Shown here: positions 8,964 through 47,230 of the stretch, in pieces
How positions within the stretch are numbered: position 1 is the first letter of the stretch
Layout of the letters: the number at the start of each line of letters is the position of its first letter
DNA from: Halococcus agarilyticus
Lineage (GTDB): Archaea > Halobacteriota > Halobacteria > Halobacteriales > Halococcaceae
DNA: 47,230 nucleotides
Assembly: GCF_000334895.1 (NCBI RefSeq)
Contig: NZ_BAFM01000021.1
Span: 1 to 47,230 of the forward strand
Direction of reading: 5' to 3'
The notes under the pieces: generated by a model
The model's input: only the letters and a program-made list of their open reading frames with translations
What the model was told of the DNA's origin: nothing
The model's database searches: none
Position numbers and translations under genes: made by a program

Positions 8964-9563
8964 CTATCCGGTCGTCTGGCTGTACTCGTCGACCCACTCG
9001 TTCAGGGTGATCCCCATCGCGGACTGGGTGATGGCGTTCGACGACGCCGAGTTGGCGCTCTTGACGAGTTCCGCCTCCAGCGTGCGCTTCGGTACCTCGC
9101 CGAGGAAGTGGGGGATCGCACGCTGCACAGTAAGGGGAACGCCGACCTCGTGGGCGAGCGCGTAGCCCGAGAGCGAGTGGGGGATCTCCTCGGAAGCGTA
9201 GCGTTCGCGGTCGGTTCCCGCAAGCCGTTCGGCGTCGACGTGATCGACGTACTCGTAGCATTTCCCGACGTCGTGGAGCAGACAGGCCGCGACGAGAACG
9301 TCGATATCGGGGTCGGCGTCGTGGAACTCGCGCTGCACGCGGGCGGATTCGAGCGCGATCTTCGTCACGCCGCGGACGTGCTCGACGTTCGTGATCTCGT
9401 GGATGTTCCACGCGTACGGAATGTCCTCGATGTCCTGCCAGCCACCACGTTCGAGTCCTAGCACCCACGCCTCGACGACCGCCTCCCTCAGTGCGTCGCT
9501 CTCGATACGATCGAGTTCGGAGTAGACCTCCCGGACCTGACTCTCGTAGTCCGGTGTGCCCAT
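8964..9563 (-). CDS. HD-domain metal-dependent phosphohydrolase
   Basis: A 199-residue HD-superfamily protein. The H..HD signature is visible as EHVRGVTKIA (H62) and CLLHDVGKCYEY (H97-D98), with a likely later metal ligand in the C-terminal helices. Such proteins hydrolyse phosphate esters or nucleotides. The gene starts one base after the stop of the EthD gene on the same strand, so the two form a tight operon with EthD first. The link between an HD hydrolase and EthD-type proteins has no obvious textbook explanation. It converges with the epimerase gene. Confidence 0.82.
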   Translation of the reverse strand: MGTPDYESQVREVYSELDRIESDALREAVVEAWVLGLERGGWQDIEDIPYAWNIHEITNVEHVRGVTKIALESARVQREFHDADPDIDVLVAACLLHDVGKCYEYVDHVDAERLAGTDRERYASEEIPHSLSGYALAHEVGVPLTVQRAIPHFLGEVPKRTLEAELVKSANSASSNAITQSAMGITLNEWVDEYSQTTG

Positions 9564-9564
9564 C

Positions 9565-10299
9565 TCAGTACCCCTCGACGTCCTCGGCCTCGTTCTTCCA
9601 GACCTTCTCTTCGCCGATGAAGCGGGGTCGGCGTTCGACGTCGAGGAAGTTGTTCACGTCCTCGCGGGCCTCCGCAGCCACTTCCCGAGTCGGATCGTAA
9701 TCCCGACTGCCCTCGCTGCCGAGGGCTTCGTGAAGATCGTCGAGCGTCTCGAAGTACAGTTCAGCGACGCCGTCGAACTCGGCGTTTTCGGGATCAGTGG
9801 GATAGACGGTCTGATAGCGAACGACGCCCTCGATGTCCTTCGCGAGCGGGGAGTGGTTTCCCTCCCAGTACTCGCGGAACTCCTCGTGGCTCATTCCCTC
9901 CTGCCGAACGAGGAACGCCGAGTGCTTGTAGAGGCCGTCGGTGTCGCCGTCGACTTCGTCCTTCCAGATCTTCTCCTCACCGATGAAGCGGGGCCGGCGT
10001 TCGACGTCGAGGAAGTTGTTCACGTCCTCGCGGGCTTTTGCAGCGACCTCGCGTGTGGGATCGTAATCCCGACTACCCTCGCTGCCGAGAGCCTCGTGGA
10101 GATCGTCGAGCGTCTCGAAATACAGCTCCGCGAGCCCATCGAACTCGGCGTTGTCGGGGTCGTTCGGATAGACGGTTTGATAGCGAACGACGCCCTCGAT
10201 GTCCTTCGCGAGCGGGGAGTGGTTTCCCTCCCAGTACTCGCGGAACTCCTCGTAGCTCATTCCCTCCTGGCGGACGAGCAGCGCGACGTGCTTGTACAT
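9565..10299 (-). CDS. Tandem EthD/dimeric alpha-beta barrel protein
   Basis: A 244-residue protein made of two nearly identical EthD-like ferredoxin-fold domains, residues 2-115 and 124-237, each starting YKH..LVRQEGMS and containing EFREYWEGNHSPLAKD. The copies differ at only nine of 114 positions. Single EthD domains usually dimerise to form a barrel, so a covalent pair would make one barrel from one chain. EthD proteins were first linked to ether degradation, but most members are uncharacterised. The ATG at 10299 gives the standard N-terminus (MYKHVALL). It sits first in an operon with the HD hydrolase. Confidence 0.85.
   Translation of the reverse strand: MYKHVALLVRQEGMSYEEFREYWEGNHSPLAKDIEGVVRYQTVYPNDPDNAEFDGLAELYFETLDDLHEALGSEGSRDYDPTREVAAKAREDVNNFLDVERRPRFIGEEKIWKDEVDGDTDGLYKHSAFLVRQEGMSHEEFREYWEGNHSPLAKDIEGVVRYQTVYPTDPENAEFDGVAELYFETLDDLHEALGSEGSRDYDPTREVAAEAREDVNNFLDVERRPRFIGEEKVWKNEAEDVEGY
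9589..10296 (-). repeat. Intragenic tandem duplication of the EthD domain
   Basis: Two 342-base units, 9955-10296 and 9589-9930, separated by 24 bases that encode the linker. They are highly similar at both DNA and protein level, indicating a recent duplication or ongoing gene conversion. Confidence 0.9.
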
Positions 10300-39261: not shown

Positions 39262-40023
39262 TTAGTGCCGCCCGAAAACGAGATATCCCGTATGACCCAC
39301 GCCGGCGGTCGAGGGACGGGTGCCGCGCTCGTCGAAGTCCATCTCGCGCTGGATCGTCTCGTAGGTCTCGACCGCCAGCCCGGCCTCGCGGGCACTCTCG
39401 ACGACCGCGCGGGAATCCTCGACGAACGGCGAGTAGACCGCGAGATAGCCCCCCTGTACCAGGAGGTCGGGCGCGTGCTCGACCACCGCCGGCGCGTCCT
39501 CGGTGTCGAGGGTCACGAGATCGAACCCCGAGAGGTCGTCAAGCGCGTCGCACACGTCGCCGGTGCGGACCGTGGCGCTGCCGGGCCCGGGAGCCGCCGT
39601 GACGCTGCCTTCCGTCTCCGCCCCGCCGACGCCCGCGAGCGCCATGTTCTCGCGCGCCACGTCGGCGAACTCGGAATCCTGCTCGTAGGTCACGACCGAC
39701 GCGCCGGCCCGCGCGAGATACGCCGCGAGCACACCGGTTCCGGTGCCGGCGTCGAGCACTCGATCGCCGGCCGCGACGCCGGTGTGACCCATGATGAGGC
39801 CGATGTCCCGCGGCATCATCGGCGCGCCGGTGCGCTCGAAGTGGTGAAAGAGGTCGGGACCCCTGAGTTCGCGGACCCGGAACTCGGTCCCGAGGTGGGT
39901 TTCGAGGGTCTCGCCGGGTGCGACGTCCTCCGGCACGTCGAGCACGCCGAGATCGGTTTCGAGCCGGTCGCCAGGCCGGCGGAGATACTCGCGATCGTCG
40001 GTGACCAACAGAACGGCGGTCAC
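39262..40023 (-). CDS. trmI: tRNA (adenine-N1) methyltransferase, TrmI family
   Basis: A 253-residue enzyme of the TrmI/Trm61 type that makes 1-methyladenosine at position 57/58 of archaeal tRNA. An N-terminal small beta domain ([14 protein letters not shown]...) precedes the Rossmann domain, whose SAM motif reads [19 protein letters not shown]. The later [12 protein letters not shown] and [10 protein letters not shown] match motifs IV and V of the family. The start is GTG at 40023, overlapping the NAC stop codon (GTGA), so translation is coupled to NAC. The same nac-trmI pairing is familiar in haloarchaea. Confidence 0.9.
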
Positions 40024-40427
40024 TCCAGCCGCGAGACGGCATCCGCGAGGTCGCCGTCGGTCTCCTCCAAGGCCTCGCGCGCGTCGTCCTCGCTCGCGTC
40101 CGTCCGCTGGGCGACGATCTCGACGTCCGCTTCGGGGATGCCGTCCCCACCGCTCTCGCTGCCAGTCCCGGCGTCGCTCGCACCGTCGCCGGCCCCGAGC
40201 GGCGTCGCCTCCTCGCCGGCCGCACGCGTCTCGGGCTCGCCCGTGATGGTGTAGGTCGCCTGGCCCTGGGCGTCCATCCGCTGGACGTCCGGCTGGTCGA
40301 AGACGAGCTCCTCGTCGCCGGTGCGGATCACGATCTCCTCGGCATCGAGCTCCTCGATGTCGATGCCCATCTGTTCCATCATCTGGTTCAGCTTCCGGGG
40401 GTTCATCCCGCCGCCTCCTCCGAACAT
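40020..40427 (-). CDS. nac: Nascent polypeptide-associated complex protein
   Basis: A 135-residue archaeal NAC. The N-terminus [20 protein letters not shown], the beta-barrel NAC domain (to about residue 65), a Gly/Asp/Glu/Ser-rich linker and a C-terminal UBA-like domain ([19 protein letters not shown]) follow the family order. It binds ribosomes and emerging nascent chains as a homodimer. It is the first gene of a coupled pair with trmI. Confidence 0.93.
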
Positions 40428-40755
40428 GAGGGACGGAACGGCCGCCAGCGTCTTGTCCCTTCGGGTTCGCCGTCACGGGAATCGATCTTCCGATCCGGGC
40501 GAATCGTCCGTGCGAGTCGCCCGAGTACCGCCGATTCTACGAGAGCGCTCTTTTCGAACCCATCGTTCGGCTGTATCGTCGTTGACACTCAAATGCTGCA
40601 ACGGTCTCGTGGCGGACGCATATGGTAGGATGCCGGCTCCGGATGGGAAACGGACGTTCCAGCGCTCGCAGTCGCGTCGACGGACGGCAGTTCGCTCGGC
40701 CGTCGAACGAGGGCTGTCGATTCGATCGTGAACGGTGGAGCGTGGAGGACCACGA
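40428..40755. other. Divergent intergenic region
   Basis: About 330 bases between nac and the DUF2182 gene. No coding signal. It probably contains the two promoters, with an AT-richer stretch near 40560-40630. Confidence 0.4.
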
Positions 40756-41595
40756 ATGAGCGTCGGCCACCGCGTCGCGGGACGGTTCGCGGCCGCGTTC
40801 CGGCTGCCGCTCGATCGCGCGACCACCGCCGTCGTGGCGATGCTCGGGATCGACGTGCTGTGGTGGGTACTGACGATCGGCGGAGCTGTGCCGATGCCGG
40901 GCATGGCGTGGCTGATGGAGCAGGGCATCCCGATGACCGCGCCGGGCGCGATGGAACGCGGCGTCGCCCACGCCGGCACGGTCGACGCCGTCCTCGGCTA
41001 CCTCGTGATGTGGGGCGTGATGATGTGGGCGATGATGCATCCGGCGATGCTCCGCTTCGTCCGATCGTACGCCGACGCCCACGAGGGCACCGCGTTCGCC
41101 GCAACGGCAGCGGTGACGACGTTTCTGGGGGGATACCTCGGGGTGTGGGCGCTCTCTGGCATGATCCCGCTCGCGGTCGACGCCGTGCTCCCCGGGGGAA
41201 TCTACGGGTTCACGCGGGCACACACCCATCTCGCGATCGGCGGGGCGCTCGTGCTCGCCGGCGGCTACCAGCTCTCGGCGTTCAAGCAGTCGCTGTTGGA
41301 TTCGTGCTGTGCGAACGTCTGCTCGCACGCGACCGGGGCCGTGGCGGCGCTCGCCGAGGGCGTGCGCCACGGCGCGCGGTGCGTGTTGATCTCCTTCGGC
41401 GTGTTCTTCCTCGTCATGCCGGTTTTCGGCGAGATGAACCCCTTCTGGATGGTCGCGTTGACGGGCGTCGTCGCGCTCGAACGCCTTCCCGAGTGGGGGC
41501 GGGAGGTCGCGGTCGGGTCGGGCGTCGTGGCGGTTCTCGCTGGACTCGTGGTCTGGCTGACTCGTCCGTCCCTCCCCGTCGCCTTCGGAATGTGA
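40756..41595 (+). CDS. DUF2182 (COG5486-like) metal-binding integral membrane protein
   Basis: A 279-residue protein with about seven membrane segments. The family signature is visible as MWGVMMWAMMHPAMLRFV (methionine-rich, about residues 88-105) and YQLSAFKQSLLDSCCANVC (176-194) with a cysteine cluster. Methionine, histidine and cysteine suggest binding of a soft metal such as copper, but the function is uncharacterised. GGAGG at 40744-40748 lies seven bases before the ATG at 40756 and decides the start over the GTG at 40735. Confidence 0.85.
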   Translation: MSVGHRVAGRFAAAFRLPLDRATTAVVAMLGIDVLWWVLTIGGAVPMPGMAWLMEQGIPMTAPGAMERGVAHAGTVDAVLGYLVMWGVMMWAMMHPAMLRFVRSYADAHEGTAFAATAAVTTFLGGYLGVWALSGMIPLAVDAVLPGGIYGFTRAHTHLAIGGALVLAGGYQLSAFKQSLLDSCCANVCSHATGAVAALAEGVRHGARCVLISFGVFFLVMPVFGEMNPFWMVALTGVVALERLPEWGREVAVGSGVVAVLAGLVVWLTRPSLPVAFGM

Positions 41596-41912
41596 CAGCT
41601 GGACCACGCCGAGCGACGACACTCCACCGGGCGACACCGTCGAAACGTTTTTTGCTCGGTGAAATCTACGGATTTATCGCAGCACCCGGACGACGCGCCG
41701 ACCCGCGGCGCGGATGACGTCCCGCCGACCAGCATGGCGTTCGTGCCGATTCCGGACGGGCGTGGTCCGGGGTCTCGTGGGGGAACGGGGTTCGTCGGTT
41801 CGGCGACGGACTATCGTGGGTCCGACGCCGCGTCGACTGTGACTTCTCGCTGCGTGGCTGCTGCGCTCCATCGCTCTACAGCCGTTGCTGTCGGTCGATA
41901 GCGAACACAACC
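41596..41912. other. Intergenic; contains one arm of a direct repeat
   Basis: No gene. CGTTTTTTGCTCGG near 41643-41657 looks like a terminator or promoter T-tract. At about 41687-41720 is a CGGACGACGCGCC...CGCGGCGCGGATGA block that recurs near 42993-43020. Confidence 0.4.
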
Positions 41913-42470
41913 ATGATTGGGGAAGACGCGTTCTGTCCGAAGACGGGTGCACCGCTCACCGAGGAACAACAGTACGACGACGCGGGCCGACCACGCCGGG
42001 TCGTCACCGCCGACGAGGAGTCGCTGGCGGCCGACGCGGCCGGCGAGCTCACCACGGGCGCGGTTCGCTCCTCGAAAGCCGCGCTGTTCAACCGGTTTCG
42101 CCGGTGCCACGAGCGTCACCACGAGACCGACGACGCACTCTATCGGAAGGCAGCGCTCGCGCTCGCGCGGCTCAAGCGCACCGCCGAGGACACCGAATCG
42201 TGGGACGTTCACGTCTGGTACGCGCTCCGAAAGCGCCTCGCTGCGGCGGGTCACGACGTCGAGTGGATGCACGCCCACGTCGAGCCACGCTGTCCGCACT
42301 GTCACAGCCGACTCCGGTACGAGGCGTACGCCGACACCGTGACCGCCCGCTGTGTGGCCGGCTGTGGCGGTCGGCCGGATCAGCTCACGGCGATCCGGGA
42401 GACGATCGCCGCGCTCTACACCCGCGCGTTCGACACCTCGATCGATCCCGACGAGTTCGTCCAGTTCTAG
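41913..42470 (+). CDS. Haloarchaeal zinc-ribbon protein with in-frame TAG before a conserved-looking tail
   Basis: A 185-residue protein with an N-terminal CPKTG, a basic helical middle (SSKAALFNRFRRCHERHH) and a C-terminal ribbon with CPHCHSRLRY and a CVAGCGG pair. I recognise no named family; nucleic acid binding is plausible. After the TAG at 42468-42470 the same frame stays open for 26 codons to a second TAG at 42549-42551, reading SILPADTAAEGDGEPSIGS then FWWLRD. This looks like a natural acidic, aromatic C-terminus, so the first stop may be a nonsense mutation, a sequencing error, or be read through. Confidence 0.7.
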   Translation: MIGEDAFCPKTGAPLTEEQQYDDAGRPRRVVTADEESLAADAAGELTTGAVRSSKAALFNRFRRCHERHHETDDALYRKAALALARLKRTAEDTESWDVHVWYALRKRLAAAGHDVEWMHAHVEPRCPHCHSRLRYEAYADTVTARCVAGCGGRPDQLTAIRETIAALYTRAFDTSIDPDEFVQF

Positions 42471-42590
42471 CGATCCATCCTCCCGGCCGACACGGCCGCC
42501 GAGGGGGACGGCGAGCCGTCGATCGGTTCGTTCTGGTGGCTTCGGGACTAGAAAAAACAAAGTTCCCGGCGGACGCGGTGGCAGTCGTCG

Positions 42591-42848
42591 ATGGGACTCA
42601 CCGAAACACCGCCGGAGGATCTCGCCGAACGCGAACTGTTCACGGAGTTCGTGGATCTGCTCGACGAGTCGGAGGGATCGCAGGAGGGGTACAGCGAGGC
42701 CCGCATTCGGGCCCGGCGCGCGGACCTGCTCGCGGAGATCGGCGAGCGACTCGAAGCGCTCGAAGCCGCGAAGGCACTCATCTGTGACGCTGGAGCCGAC
42801 CCCGAGCCCCAACCAGCGCCGCGACGCGAGCCCAATCAGGAGCTGTAG
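42591..42848 (+). CDS. Small acidic helical hypothetical protein
   Basis: An 85-residue protein, strongly acidic, with a predicted helical hairpin (DLAERELFTEFVDLLDESEG and ADLLAEIGERLEALEAAKAL) and a proline-rich tail. No cysteine cluster apart from one Cys. No family recognised. It begins about 40 bases after the second TAG of the upstream gene and may be co-transcribed with it. Confidence 0.6.
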   Translation: MGLTETPPEDLAERELFTEFVDLLDESEGSQEGYSEARIRARRADLLAEIGERLEALEAAKALICDAGADPEPQPAPRREPNQEL

Positions 42849-43410
42849 TCCACACGATCGCCGTCGTAGCGGGAACGCGCCGCGGATGCCGAGCGACGAC
42901 CGTCCGATCGTTCCACTGTCTCTGATTACCCTGCTGTACGATCTGGCGTCCTTTTCCCTTCGGTGGCCTATCGTTGAGCACGGAACGACGCCGGACGACG
43001 CGCCCCGCGGCGCGGATGATCCCCGGCCGGACAGCTGCCGGTCTCGATCCCCGTGGTCCGACGACGGGCCGTAGATGCACGTTCGGGATCGGCGTCGTCG
43101 AGGGAGGGGTCCGGCGTCCCGTTTCATCGCCGATGATCACGACTCTGCTTCTGGTCGCGTGGTGGTATCGACGACGAACCGCTCATGAACGCAACGGGGA
43201 CGACGACGGTACGTCGTCCGTCCGATAGGACGCGTTCGTTCCGCCGTTTTCGATCGGTTCGGTGCATCTCTCAGCTACTCGAAATGGAAACGACCCACCG
43301 ATACAGTCGAACGGCCGTCGATCGTCGACCCCGATCGATACCCCTTGTCGATCGGATCGATGGCGGAATCGTGCCGGAACACCGCCCGCGCCGTCGGGGG
43401 GTGGACTGAG
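42849..43410. other. Intergenic; contains second arm of a direct repeat
   Basis: About 560 bases without a supported gene. It contains CGGACGACGCGCC...GCGGCGCGGATGA near 42993-43020, similar to 41687-41720. A 31-codon frame from 43134 begins with a hydrophobic stretch, but is too short to support. Confidence 0.4.
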
Positions 43411-43893
43411 ATGGCGCGCAAGGACATGCGCCTGGTCGAGGTGATCACGCTGTCCGAGCACACCCGCGAGACGGTGCTCGACGTGCTCGACGCCAACGAT
43501 CTCGACTACTCGATCTCGGATCACACGAACGACCCCGACACGTCGGCGACGATCTCGTTCCCGCTGCCGTCACACACCGTCGAACCGATCCAGAACGAAC
43601 TCGCGGCGCTCGATCTCGGCGAGGACATGTACACGGTCGTGGTCGAGCCCGAGACGATCACCTCGGATCGACTGGGCGAGTCCGACGACCGTTTCGAGCA
43701 GGTCGAGGGGCTCGGCCACCAGGGGATCTCCCGGAGCGAGCTCCACTCGAAAGCGGCGGATCTCATCCCCGATCTCGTGATCTACTCGCTGATGACCGCG
43801 ATCACAAAGTCTCGGTCTACCTGTTGTCTACCCACTTTGTTCGGCCAAAATCCACTCCCGTACCGCGATTTCACATACGGTCTACAAGAATAA
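43411..43893 (+). pseudogene. DUF389 (TIGR00341) membrane protein, truncated at an element boundary
   Basis: Residues 1-131 match the cytosolic N-terminal domain of DUF389 proteins: MRLVEVITLSEHTRETVLDV, SATISFPLPSHTVEPIQNEL, YTVVVEPETITSDRL and LHSKAADLIPDLVIYSLMTA. In full-length relatives this is followed by several membrane segments. Here the homology stops right at the first membrane segment, after MTAI (codon 43801-43803). The next 29 codons (TKSRSTCCLPTLFGQ...) are unrelated, low-GC sequence ending at a stop at 43893. The gene has evidently been cut by insertion of, or a deletion next to, the element that follows. Confidence 0.8.
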
Positions 43894-43925
43894 AACCCCT
43901 ACGGTCGAACCCGTCTTGTCAACCT

Positions 43926-44087
43926 TCAATCGTTGAACGACAGTACAGTATAATCGTTCGCTCCACACTCCGGACACGAGGAGTTACCCATTATGTGAGT
44001 GCCTGACACGGTACGACCGACCGTTAAAGTGTACCCACACTCGTCACACTCCGCTGGTCGGACAGATACCGCTCGGGTCGGGGCCAT
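43926..44087 (-). CDS. 53-residue zinc-ribbon protein
   Basis: A small protein translated from the ATG at 44087: MAPTRAVSVRPAECDECGYT..., then SCPECGANDYTVLSFND before the stop. CDEC (14-17) and CPEC (38-41) make a classical treble-clef or ribbon zinc site with a 20-residue loop. It is too short for usual gene-calling limits. Its own TATA box lies about 20-30 bases upstream, so it is probably expressed from a very short leader. Role unknown; DNA binding or RNA polymerase-related regulation are possible. It is flanked by an imperfect inverted repeat (43896-43911 and 44220-44235). Confidence 0.72.
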   Translation of the reverse strand: MAPTRAVSVRPAECDECGYTLTVGRTVSGTHIMGNSSCPECGANDYTVLSFND

Positions 44088-44103
44088 GGTACAAGGTACG
44101 GTT

Positions 44104-44120
44104 GTATATTATATTATACT
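44104..44120 (-). promoter_or_regulatory. TATA box for the zinc-ribbon gene
   Basis: On the minus strand the run AGTATAATATAATATACAA ends about 17-30 bases before the ATG at 44087. It is the strongest AT-only TATA-like word in the window and lies where an archaeal leaderless promoter is expected. Confidence 0.6.
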
Positions 44121-44414
44121 GTCGAACTCTCTCCTCTACCGGCCGAAACCATTAGTGTCCGACCGCAGTCATGCGGTTTCGGGGGTATCTGAAAAGTTAG
44201 TGCGAATACGCGGAGCAATGTTCGACCCGTAGGGGGTGGGGGGTTCCGGTCGACAAAGTGCCCTGCGCGGGGATACTCGGTTTTCCTTCGGCTGAAACCC
44301 CTGTTATCGTATGGTAGGGAGTCTGAGCTATCGGCTCAAACACTCTCTAAGTAAACCGAGAACGGAAGGGTGCCCTCATACCCTCCGATCCGGTCCGTTG
44401 CTCTGGCATCGTGA

Positions 44415-44448
44415 GGGGGAGGTTTGGTTCCTGTCCCATGCCTCCCCC
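44415..44448 (-). terminator. Hairpin downstream of the SWIM gene
   Basis: GGGGGAGG (44415-44422) and CCTCCCCC (44441-44448) are perfect 8-bp arms around an 18-base loop, about 70 bases beyond the stop of the leftward SWIM gene. It may stop transcription or protect the 3' end. No strong T-tract follows, so this is tentative. Confidence 0.4.
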
Positions 44449-44516
44449 ACCACGTGCCATATGCGCGGTTAACAAAGTTGTTGTGGCCGGAACAAGATGA
44501 AGCCGGTCGGTACTGG

Positions 44517-45092
44517 TTACGTTCGGCGGAACACAACCCCCGTCTCGTTGTCGGGGCCGAGTCCCGAGTATAGTTCTTCGATCCGGTAGCCGGCGTCCCG
44601 TGCGACCGACAGGGTACGGTCGAGCACAACGGTGGACAAGCGCAGGCTGATTTCATCCTCGCGGACCACAACCCTCGCGTCCGGGGCCTTCGATTGTAGT
44701 TCGTCCGCCACGTCGTTGATGTCGGTCTCGACTGGGGACGGGTCGGCCACGACCGTACCACCGTCGGCCGCGACCGGCTCGGGTGCGGTCGAAGCCGTCG
44801 GGGTCGTCTCGACCTGTTCGATATGGTCCTCCACCGCGAGCATGTGTTTGCACGACTCGCCCGCGTCGGCCCGTCGGTATCGGTAATCAGGACACCGGCA
44901 GGCTTCGGCTCCACCGGTCGACGGGTCCACGTCGACAGTATAGGTGTGGTCGGACTCGGTACCAGTACCGTGCGACCGGTTGCATACGTTGTAGTGTTCA
45001 TCGTCCGCGCGGACGATATCGATATCTTCGTACTCGGCGCGACGTTCGACCTTTTCCGAACTACTAAGTTCGGACGTGTTCGATTTGGTCAT
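44517..45092 (-). CDS. SWIM zinc-finger domain protein
   Basis: A 191-residue protein. A SWIM finger (CxCx(n)CxH) is seen as ACRCPDYRYRRADAGESCKH, ligands C65, C67, C81 and H83. Before it lies a small beta unit (DEHYNVCNRS...HTYTVDVDPS); after it an acidic linker and a C-terminal alpha-beta region (ARVVVREDEISLRLSTVVL). SWIM proteins bind DNA or protein and are common in haloarchaeal plasmids and proviruses. The ATG at 45092 lies at the base of a hairpin in the leader and is the best start; the upstream frame is not conserved-looking. Confidence 0.8.
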   Translation of the reverse strand: MTKSNTSELSSSEKVERRAEYEDIDIVRADDEHYNVCNRSHGTGTESDHTYTVDVDPSTGGAEACRCPDYRYRRADAGESCKHMLAVEDHIEQVETTPTASTAPEPVAADGGTVVADPSPVETDINDVADELQSKAPDARVVVREDEISLRLSTVVLDRTLSVARDAGYRIEELYSGLGPDNETGVVFRRT

Positions 45093-45142
45093 GCTGGTTG
45101 GACTGCCAGCAAAACGATCCCGGCATCCTACTGCCGGGGTCG
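45092..45142 (-). promoter_or_regulatory. Tandem leader hairpins of the SWIM gene, attenuator-like
   Basis: Two stem-loops fill the leader. The first (45115-45125 with 45132-45142) has 11 pairs with one G-T and a six-base loop. On the minus strand it is followed directly by TTTT, like an intrinsic terminator. The second (45092-45097 with 45106-45111) pairs TGCTGG with CCAGCA and includes the A of the start codon. The arrangement suggests attenuation or translational control (inference). Confidence 0.45.
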
Positions 45143-45600
45143 TCGGTTTTGACCCCCGAGGGGACCGTTTTGCCTTACTATAGCCTTGTATCGCCATCCA
45201 CTTATAGGTATCTTATATATTCAAATAAGTAACAATGTAACTAAACCTAATACTGATATCAACAGAAAAGACGCCGACGGCGACCGGACCGCCGTGCTCG
45301 AATGGCAATAGGGAGGGGACCGCACGATCATACCGCAGGGGAGTTGCGGGCGTGCGGGCGGGGCCGACGCCCGCCATACCATACAGCCCGTTCCCTCCGT
45401 CGTTCGCGGTGCTCACTCCCACCCACCCACCTCCACGGTCGCGGGCGCTTCGCGCCGGGCTTTCGCAAGAGCGAGTGTAGGAGCGCGTAGCGGGCGCGCG
45501 ACCGTTGCGGTCATACCTCGCTATGTCGAGTGGGACCCGATCACATCGGGGCTGATCGGGACCCGTCGACCCGGACGAAACCGATTCGGGGAGGACCCGG
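45143..45600. other. Non-coding spacer with AT-rich patch and GC-rich repeats
   Basis: No gene. 45200-45260 is very AT-rich (TTATAGGTATCTTATATATTC) and probably contains the SWIM promoter. 45264-45510 is GC-rich with overlapping palindromes such as GGGCGCTTCGCGCC. 45530-45600 carries repeated GGGACCCG (twice), GGACCCGG and TCGGGG words just before the next TATA box, which may be regulator sites or part of a replication region. Confidence 0.4.
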
Positions 45601-45602
45601 AC

Positions 45603-45609
45603 TTATATG
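45603..45609 (+). promoter_or_regulatory. TATA box for the 45633 gene
   Basis: TTATATG lies 24-30 bases before the ATG at 45633, giving a leaderless or nearly leaderless message. GC-rich repeated words lie immediately upstream. Confidence 0.55.
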
Positions 45610-45632
45610 TCACTGAGTATTGCACTTGGGAT

Positions 45633-46049
45633 ATGGGCGAACGCGGAACGAACTACCAGATTGAATGGATGGTTGATCCGGAAGCCGAAGAGGAGTCTAC
45701 AGAGGAGTTGTTAACCGAGATCCGTGAAGAGGTTAGCGAAGACATACAAGACCGGGGTCGAGTACGAAGAAACAGTATTGATCCGATGACTTTCGCATCA
45801 ATCGCTATGCTTAGTATAAATAGTACTTCACTTTTGATTCAAATTTACCAATACTTGGACGGACGTGACGGTTCTACAGTGGGTATAATGAAGGTGGAGG
45901 ATGGTGATAGTATCTACGCCGATAATGTGGAGAAGACAGAAATAGAAGAGATTGGTGGAACATATATCGGGAATGTGGAAGGCGATCTTAATTTATTTGA
46001 AATTTCTCCAGAACAGGCGATCGAACTTAGTGAAGAACGTGAAGAGTAG
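45633..46049 (+). CDS. Small hypothetical protein with one hydrophobic segment
   Basis: A 138-residue protein in three parts: an acidic N-terminal helix region (residues 15-40, EEESTEELLTEIREEVSEDI), a hydrophobic segment (DPMTFASIAMLSINSTSL and on to about 75), and a C-terminal beta-rich part with IGGTYIGNVEGDLNLFEI (107-124). Codon use is much more A/T-rich at third positions than in the rest of the window, which fits an imported gene. No family recognised. The C-terminal GNVxGDxN pattern resembles repeat strands seen in some defence-associated effectors, but this is only a visual impression. Confidence 0.65.
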   Translation: MGERGTNYQIEWMVDPEAEEESTEELLTEIREEVSEDIQDRGRVRRNSIDPMTFASIAMLSINSTSLLIQIYQYLDGRDGSTVGIMKVEDGDSIYADNVEKTEIEEIGGTYIGNVEGDLNLFEISPEQAIELSEEREE

Positions 46050-46064
46050 AGAAAACCAGATCGT

Positions 46065-46125
46065 TCGGACAGTCCGACACTGCTCGGGCCACACAAGTAC
46101 AGGTCTCACCGCACCGGATCGGTGC
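46065..46125 (+). terminator. Two hairpins after the 45633 gene
   Basis: TCGGAC-A-GTCCGA (46065-46077) begins 16 bases after the stop codon, and GCACCG-GAT-CGGTGC (46111-46125) follows. Either could end the transcript. No clear T-tract follows either one. Confidence 0.35.
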
Positions 46126-46164
46126 CGGTGGGGTGACACGGTGTACCATGCGGCCACACGGGAT

Positions 46165-46184
46165 ATAGATACTACTGTATCTAT
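46165..46184. promoter_or_regulatory. Perfect 8-bp AT-rich palindrome, operator-like
   Basis: ATAGATAC (46165-46172) and GTATCTAT (46177-46184) with a four-base centre. The preceding GGATATAG could be a TATA box. It has the look of a site for a dimeric repressor, but no gene starts close by on either strand. Confidence 0.4.
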
Positions 46185-46287
46185 GCTCGGTGCGTGGCGA
46201 ACGCGAAAGGGTCGGCCGTATAGGAGTCGAGACCGTGCGACCGACGGACGCCCCACTACGGGCGTATGAATAGCAACGTCCGGACGA

Positions 46288-46421
46288 AACCAGCCATGCT
46301 GGTTGCGGACTGATGGGGCATCGATCCGTGAGAACCACGGAAAGGCCGACGTTCGTCCGCAACCGAACATTGGTGTGTCCGGAGGTTGCGACGTGTGCCC
46401 GCAACCAGCTAAGCTGATTGC
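46288..46421. repeat. Cluster of related GCAACC/GGTTGC palindromes
   Basis: Two palindromes share a core: AACCAGC-CAT-GCTGGTT (46288-46304) and GCAACCAGC-TAA-GCTGATTGC (46401-46421, one mismatch). Between them lie GTCCGCAACC (46355-46364) and GGTTGCGACG (46384-46393) in opposite orientations. The same GCTGGTTG word occurs at the SWIM start codon (45093-45100). This could be an iteron-like origin or a regulator-binding cluster. Confidence 0.5.
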
Positions 46422-46432
46422 GAACACACAAA

Positions 46433-46750
46433 GGGGGAGTAGGATCGTACCAGTACGTAACAGATCCGTATATTTAAACCTTTCGGTAGTTGTTTAACTT
46501 ACTCGGTAGAATCTTGTAGACTGGTACGTTCCGACCGGAACGGTTACGCTCCGGCTCCGGTGTAGCGAGACCGTCCGAACTGGTTCCGTTCGATCACGAC
46601 CTCACTACACCACCAGACCCTCCCACCTCAGGGGACCCAAACCGAATACGCAGAGACGCCCTTAGTGGGGCGTCTCATCGGTAGCCAAGCTCACACGGAC
46701 CATTCTGATGTTTCACTAACTTAACTAATAAGGGACGATCCTACTCCCCC
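46433..46750. repeat. 16-bp perfect inverted repeat bounding a 300-base non-coding module
   Basis: GGGGGAGTAGGATCGT at 46433-46448 recurs as its reverse complement at 46735-46750. A shorter related word, GGAGTAGG, follows at 46852-46859. No target-site duplication is evident next to the repeats. Confidence 0.65.
46495..46676 (+). ncRNA. Possible structured non-coding RNA
   Basis: TATATTTAAA (46469-46478) would place a start near 46500. Downstream, no frame codes, but strong pairings exist: CGTTCC-GACC-GGAACG (46527-46542), GGTGTAGCGAG (46559-46569) with CTCACTACACC (46601-46611, one mismatch), and a perfect 9-bp hairpin GAGACGCCC/GGGCGTCTC (46653-46661, 46668-46676) that could end the molecule. 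It lies inside the 16-bp inverted repeats. No known RNA family recognised. Confidence 0.3.
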
Positions 46751-46894
46751 CCGTTCGACCATCCGTATGGATAGACGGAGCGATTTCACGCGAGACGTGA
46801 CGACTCCGCCCATACCCTGCTAAGGGTCGAGGCGACCCCCGAACCCGCTTTGGAGTAGGGGGATAACTACGTCAGTTGAAGACGGGCTTACTTC

Positions 46895-47047
46895 TTAATT
46901 TACCTTATATCCCCAGCTATTTAAAGCTTTCGGGAGAGAGATGCTAACGCCCCTCTTGAACGTACATTCAGGATCGATCCGGCCACACTCGTAGATGTCG
47001 GCCGGTAATCGATCGGTGTCGTGGCCGACCTGTTGCGGACCGAACAT
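46895..47047 (-). CDS. Possible 50-residue small protein
   Basis: An ATG at 47047 opens a 50-codon frame: MFGPQQVGHDTDRLPADIYE, then CGRIDPECTFKRGVSISLPK and a short tail to TAA. Its balanced composition looks more protein-like than its surroundings and it has two cysteines six residues apart. Against it, TATA-like words (CTATTTAAAG, CTTATATCC) lie inside the 3' part of the frame, and no promoter is evident upstream. Unrecognised and weakly supported. Confidence 0.27.
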   Translation of the reverse strand: MFGPQQVGHDTDRLPADIYECGRIDPECTFKRGVSISLPKALNSWGYKVN

Positions 47048-47230
47048 ATCAGTTTGCTTTGAGAGCCGTCAGATTGCTCACAGATCGTTTGTGTCAAATT
47101 GCAATGGCTACCCCTTGGGACACAACAGACTTGATTACAGGCTAATCTGGGGAGATAAAAAGAAACCCATCGCCAACTGATCTGTTTGTGGGGCGACTTG
47201 TCAACGTCGGGCGGGACGTGTTGTTTTGAT
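47048..47230. other. Window end, unexplained low-GC sequence
   Basis: No supported gene. A 61-codon plus-strand frame ends at 47180 but has no family features. The sequence GGAGATAAAAAGAAACCC near 47151-47168 is AT-rich and may be promoter DNA for a gene beyond the window. Confidence 0.3.

Follow-up and report, generated by a model that had tools for sequence, protein, structure and literature searches.

A probable site-specific integrative element of an RHH-integrase family inside a DUF389 gene of Halococcus agarilyticus, and its relatives in other haloarchaea

A DUF389 gene in the draft genome of Halococcus agarilyticus is divided into two halves that lie on different contigs, and the best explanation, to which we assign a probability of about 94%, is that a site-specific integrative element of an RHH-integrase family was inserted into the gene by its tyrosine recombinase. 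The window analyzed here is one entire contig of this genome (C21, 47,230 nucleotides; the genome is 58 contigs, 3.48 Mb), and it holds the 5' half of the gene and the left part of the element; the other half of the gene and the right part of the element are on contig C29. The single DUF389 case is an ordinary event in an unusual place, and the family, with the apparent change of target among its members, is the interesting part.

The divided DUF389 gene and its probable recombination core

The features of the window are the following:

43411..43804, plus strand: N-terminal (5') half of the divided DUF389 gene; 131 codons ending in ...LMTAI
43790-43804, no strand: attL core TGATGACCGCGATCA; its only other genomic copy (attR) is at the end of the element on C29
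43804..43840, no strand: inverted repeat of 7 bp, ACAAAGT/ACTTTGT, immediately inside attL; GTCTACC occurs twice between its arms
43805..47230, no strand: left part of the integrated element, 3426 bp, stopped by the contig end
43926..44087, minus strand: zinc-ribbon-like ORF, 53 aa, with weak Pfam matches that are all under the cut-offs
44517..45197, minus strand: 226-aa ORF with a weak SWIM zinc-finger-like segment (E 0.23; phrog_17897 E 0.0008) and partial relatives
45633..46049, plus strand: 138-aa ORF of the element

The sequence-only reading had proposed that the gene is cut at its first membrane segment by a low-G+C element, and its description of the boundary is borne out: homology to DUF389 ceases after MTAI at 43804, the start of the first membrane segment, after which the DUF389 frame reads 30 more codons of unrelated sequence to a stop at 43893. 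Composition shifts at the same point, from a G+C of 0.672 outside (40001-43789) to 0.552 inside (43805-47230), and the right part of the element has a G+C of 0.513. The element is thus low in G+C as claimed, but the window, ending at 47230, holds its left part alone.

The lost C-terminal half, which the sequence-only reading had proposed to look for beyond the window, was found on C29 by a Pfam DUF389 search of the same genome, as an open frame of about 230 (230-232) codons on the minus strand at 9308-10000 of locus L012 (C29:15000-28354); Pfam DUF389 covers 26-170 of 230 aa. This frame begins ATG ATG ACC GCG ATC AGC, so that the core itself gives the half-gene an in-frame ATG ATG (L012 9985-10061), and the motif TATAAG is found about 25 bp upstream, within the element; a leaderless transcript of the C-terminal half-gene is conceivable on this basis.

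Both halves terminate in the same 15-bp core, the attR copy being at C29 24984-24998, and a pattern search of the 3.48 Mb genome returned exactly these two copies and none of the reversed control pattern. With the flanks rejoined, the site reads CGCTGAT-GACCGCG-ATCAGCG, whose 7-bp arms form a perfect dyad about a 7-bp spacer, and this is the layout expected for a tyrosine-recombinase core site. The rejoined attB is in the top 1% of flanking-DNA positions for dyad symmetry score at arm lengths 7 and 9. The inverted repeat ACAAAGT/ACTTTGT had been put forward as a possible mark of the recombination site, and it is indeed right at the boundary (43804-43810 and 43834-43840), where its first base is the core's last, but the exchange site is the 15-bp core immediately to its left, and the meaningful repeat is CGCTGAT/ATCAGCG, which becomes visible only once the flanks are rejoined. 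ACAAAGT/ACTTTGT is weak on its own because such 7-bp repeats are not rare in element DNA (with a spacer of at most 30 they occur in 365 of 3381 overlapping 45-nt windows of the left part, and in 48 of 2000 random 45-mers); it may be an arm-type protein site.

When the N-terminal half was searched against 60 genomes, the source genome included, matches 79-93% identical over all 130 residues were found in four congeneric genomes (G002, G008, G007 and G005), each with an intact gene. The empty sites of these relatives carry a single core, and in an ungapped comparison of 200 bases the joined flanks are identical to them at 188, 195, 167 and 167 positions, respectively; this match to empty sites indicates insertion and not deletion. 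A gene could also be truncated without a mobile element, by deletion alone or by rearrangement at short direct repeats, and repeat-mediated deletions at 10-19 bp repeats have been described in haloarchaea (PMC3119063, in the part of that paper used here). The half-gene on C29 together with the empty sites already refutes this possibility, and we leave it almost no probability: the 3' half exists with an intact integrase adjoining it, four relatives have a single-core empty site, G+C falls on both sides, and a related element in genome G004 has weakly matching small genes. The checks that the sequence-only reading had proposed for an insertion (the missing half, an integrase next to it, and an empty site in related strains) all gave positive results.

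C21 and C29 are linked by the core that they have in common, by the two halves of the gene and by comparison with the relatives, and not by read-through, because the middle of the element is missing from the assembly; the last 151 bases of C21 have no overlap with other contigs. In a 58-contig draft in which both contigs end inside the element, the truncation might instead be the product of a contig mis-join. We consider such a chimera very improbable, since each contig passes its junction about 3.4 kb from its own end, the core is common to the two contigs and found nowhere else in the genome, and the same architecture is present in many independent assemblies, some with contigs of several Mb. 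Under insertion, a small plasmid-like element would have entered the chromosome by a tyrosine-recombinase exchange between its attP and the attB within the DUF389 gene, at the start of the first membrane segment. The integrase would cut inside the 7-bp spacer of the dyad, the RHH protein would bind beside the core and control or direct recombination, and excision by the same integrase would restore the DUF389 gene exactly.

The integrase, the RHH-like gene and the cargo

Inside the core on C29 there is an RHH-like gene and then an intact 333-aa integrase (PF00589, E 9.9e-25), whose gene starts about 555 bp from the core. Residues R169, K194, H277, R280, H303 and Y312, which we take to be the catalytic ones, are invariant in an alignment of five family members. 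The RHH-like protein (MARSQINLKLSPEQK...SLSHLIR) has no Pfam match, and we presume it to be of the RHH type from its motif; it aligns to four others at 25-40% identity. The core starts at L012 9985, which is 64 bp from the M of MARSQIN (10049), so the element has the family layout, with the RHH ORF directly upstream of the integrase and the core about 60-80 bp before the RHH start. It also has what marks tyrosine-recombinase elements, namely an enzyme of the Phage_integrase family and an att site whose core is duplicated when occupied and single when empty. Two other assignments were rejected: an SSV-type (suicidal) element, as the 333-aa integrase ORF is uninterrupted and the core is not within it but upstream of the RHH ORF, and a tRNA-targeting element, as attB is DUF389 coding sequence.

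The assembled parts of the element total about 6.8 kb, which is a minimum size as the middle is unassembled. Its nearest relative, in G004 (integrase identity 51%), is complete at 6472 bp and has small genes beside the integrase that match those of the H. agarilyticus element weakly, so the latter may be little longer than its assembled parts. The stretch at 46260-46900 of the window has few ORFs; words resembling GTTGCGGAC recur in it, there is also a stem, AGACGCCC/GGGGCGTCT, and the stretch could hold a replication origin.

Cargo was examined with Pfam and PHROGs tables for 59 ORFs from 21 elements, six of them from the H. agarilyticus element. The matches include DUF1424 Rep proteins in two, HNH-type matches in four, one primase, one CARF protein and several HTH proteins. 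A PADLOC scan of the cargo gave the CARF protein and otherwise weak hits only, with no common defence theme. The integrase matched 13 of 72,556 plasmid records, none above 41% identity. To judge from these contents, plasmid-like integrative elements would fit best. An integrated virus is the alternative to be weighed: tyrosine integrases are common in haloarchaeal proviruses (PMC8371274, in the sections used here), and the full size of the element is not given by an assembly that lacks its middle. There is, against this, no capsid, portal or spike protein among the 59 cargo ORFs (from the assembled parts of this and 20 other elements), where Rep, primase, HNH and HTH proteins are present instead and a terminase small subunit is matched once, weakly; only one of 50,697 phage records matches the integrase, at 27% identity and weakly, and neither the integrase nor the SWIM-like protein matched anything in scans of viral contigs. 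We therefore think a provirus quite improbable. As the cargo of L168 and L063 illustrates, a primase or Rep-like proteins are present in some members, whereas others have no more than a few small ORFs (L063, at about 2.7 kb), so the smallest elements may depend on helpers.

A family of elements within protein-coding genes

A search with the integrase alignment found matches at E ≤ 1e-60 in 57 of 392 genomes of the order, and a search of a contig collection gave 38 loci; the ten haloarchaeal ones entered the analysis, and the other 28, all with bacterial titles, did not. The 53 regions compared are 40 from part of the 57-genome list, the ten haloarchaeal loci, one locus each from G004 and G012, and that of the H. 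agarilyticus element. By a motif rule, an RHH-like ORF precedes the integrase in 38 of the 53, to which the family analysis is confined; removal of three duplicates leaves 35 elements, the H. agarilyticus one included, which are not all independent, since the integrase sequences of L137 and L139 are in part the same. The layout of the family is core, about 70 bp, RHH gene, integrase gene, variable cargo, core. Twenty of the 35, at 15 target sites, lie within a protein gene, have a core at each end and give back the reading frame when the flanks are joined; six more are gene-internal on weaker evidence, two are at gene ends and seven were not placed. Most members with assigned sites lie inside protein-coding genes. 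The assignments are as follows, the first 14 lines being gene-internal with the frame restored:

DUF389: the H. agarilyticus element
Secretion ATPases, two sites: L057; L061 and L130
Eco57I/PglX-like methylase: L168
TspO: L060
Beta-propeller-like gene: L063 (core only 8 bp)
Zinc-ribbon membrane protein: L064
TctA: L068, L148, L161, L162
ABC-2 permease: L070, L158
GNAT protein: L149
GAF protein: L155
ABC exporter: L156
Pilin-like gene: L129
Uracil-DNA-glycosylase-like gene: L141
Old-yellow-enzyme-like gene: L134
Inside a gene but defective: L154 (frameshift), L142 (exact core absent)
One gene end only: L069, L131, L132, L151
At gene ends: L062 (3' end), L152 (5' end)
Not placed: L066, L135, L137, L138, L139, L144, L145

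The target names for L063, L129, L134, L141 and L168 are presumptive, being taken from sequence motifs with no database match over the cut-off, and the two cores of L068, L129 and L134 differ by one mismatch. Joining the ABC-2 permease halves of L154 would put the frame off by 1 nt, and the gene would thus not be regained on excision; this is possibly an imprecise or decayed insertion. In L069 the open frame of an N-terminal half resembling a multicopper oxidase (9003-9989) meets no stop before it enters the element's RHH gene, and a multicopper-oxidase-RHH fusion protein is possible. In two genomes (L142 and L151) a creatininase-like gene is interrupted close to the same YAVEW motif, with more intact or partial creatininase copies near the elements.

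Control windows also yield matches of 11-16 bp, so repeat length was rejected as proof of att sites; as it is not significant alone, gene restoration and comparison with relatives were required as evidence. Ten joined proteins were scanned, and in five a single Pfam domain runs well across the junction (T2SSE twice, TctA, ABC2_membrane and TspO); in a sixth, the GNAT protein, the domain crosses it only just. Among 31 genomes of the genus of G036, the beta-propeller gene is full-length in 21, including G362, and in G036 it is in two pieces (1-137 and 133-322). For the pilin-like gene, 30 genomes of that genus were compared, G036 not among them: 26 have it as a single piece, G362 alone has it broken (20-142), and three show no match. 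Residues 1-240 of the secretion ATPase are complete in nine of the 15 genomes of the genus of G333, which is itself one of the 15 and has two pieces.

Accepted cores were picked by hand near the RHH start, so the core-RHH distances are selected and are not an independent test. Dyad symmetry of attB was rejected as a family rule, with just 4-5 of 18 sites (the DUF389 site included; L142, L066 and L154 excluded) in the top 10%. Inverted arms common to both element ends exceed the 95% level of shuffled sequences in 12 of 19 elements, equal it in one and are below it in six; none above that level were found in the H. agarilyticus element. An integrase tree with target labels is likewise not evidence, as its 18 changes are the minimum possible for 19 labels.

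L063, L064 and L129 have integrases with 84-89% identity to one another, yet the targets and cores of the three elements are unrelated; just inside their cores are similar repeats of about GTATTAACAACGCAAACA, with the inverse at the other end. At TctA, one site at the same codons is hit by integrases as little as 37% identical (L068 and L148), L068 and L148 being in one orientation and L161 and L162 in the other, and this is a convergent choice of one site. These patterns suggest the hypothesis that the core is exchangeable and that the arms are what an integrase keeps. A bolder proposal, that integrases are retargeted by the swap of a 13-15 bp core while they read conserved arm repeats inside the element and take any core it brings, which would let nearly identical enzymes such as those of L063, L064 and L129 enter unrelated conserved genes, and that the elements act as reversible knock-outs of host genes, is one we put forward tentatively and think rather unlikely.

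Conditional excision could also make the insertion a regulated switch that restores DUF389, as with the bacterial nifD and skin elements, which would be compatible with site-specific integration. The intact integrase has been kept, and the arrangement is reversible by design, joining of the cores restoring the frame here and in 19 other members. We judge such a switch improbable all the same: the core occurs only at attL and attR, with no excised (attB) junction in the assembly, and the genes that are hit are many and varied and belong to no common pathway.

Comparison with known systems

Most described sites of archaeal integrases are tRNA genes; protein-gene targets have been reported on occasion, among them HMG-CoA reductase (virus BJ1), a cation efflux gene and an AsnC gene, and section 19 of the same review asks whether intragenic sites have dyad symmetry and recombine (PMC8371274, in the sections used here). 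The Haloferax gibbonsii elements are in tRNA genes (PMC7921747, from an excerpt), and Halorubrum ezzemoulense has 19 integrase-bearing islands, mostly of low G+C, the word "interrupt" being absent from that paper (PMC11078007). An RHH-integrase family that splits protein genes was not found in a search of an open-access library. The family appears to be scarcely described, and it would break many different conserved genes by precise and in principle reversible insertion.

Archaeal integration into protein genes has been reported but thought exceptional, and the family gives 15 such sites with empty-site controls, as well as small elements that are complete (the smallest about 2.7 kb) and sister integrases whose targets differ. 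If specificity does travel with the short core, these would be a natural experiment in recombinase retargeting and a source of small tools for haloarchaeal genetics. For annotation, some "truncated" haloarchaeal genes are split and possibly restorable.

The H. agarilyticus element is like other archaeal tyrosine-recombinase elements in its integrase at one end, short duplicated core and catalytic residues, and unlike most of them, which use tRNA sites, in that its family lies mainly inside protein genes and has an RHH gene between core and integrase. It shares with SSV-type integrases an archaeal tyrosine recombinase on a small integrating element, but in SSV-type elements the integrase gene is split on integration and here it is intact (for these comparisons, PMC8371274, sections as above). 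Thaumarchaeal elements also have short att sites (13 bp in one example) and protein-gene targets verified by empty sites, but all 14 protein-gene integrations there are 3'-distal, whereas the DUF389 insertion is internal and cuts the gene (PMC6563490). The nifD element of cyanobacteria and skin and SP-beta of Bacillus similarly lie in a protein gene whose frame is expected to be regained on precise excision; their excision is reported to be tied to cell differentiation (PMC4874684, PMC6957869), whereas in the present family excision is a prediction and the targets are diverse.
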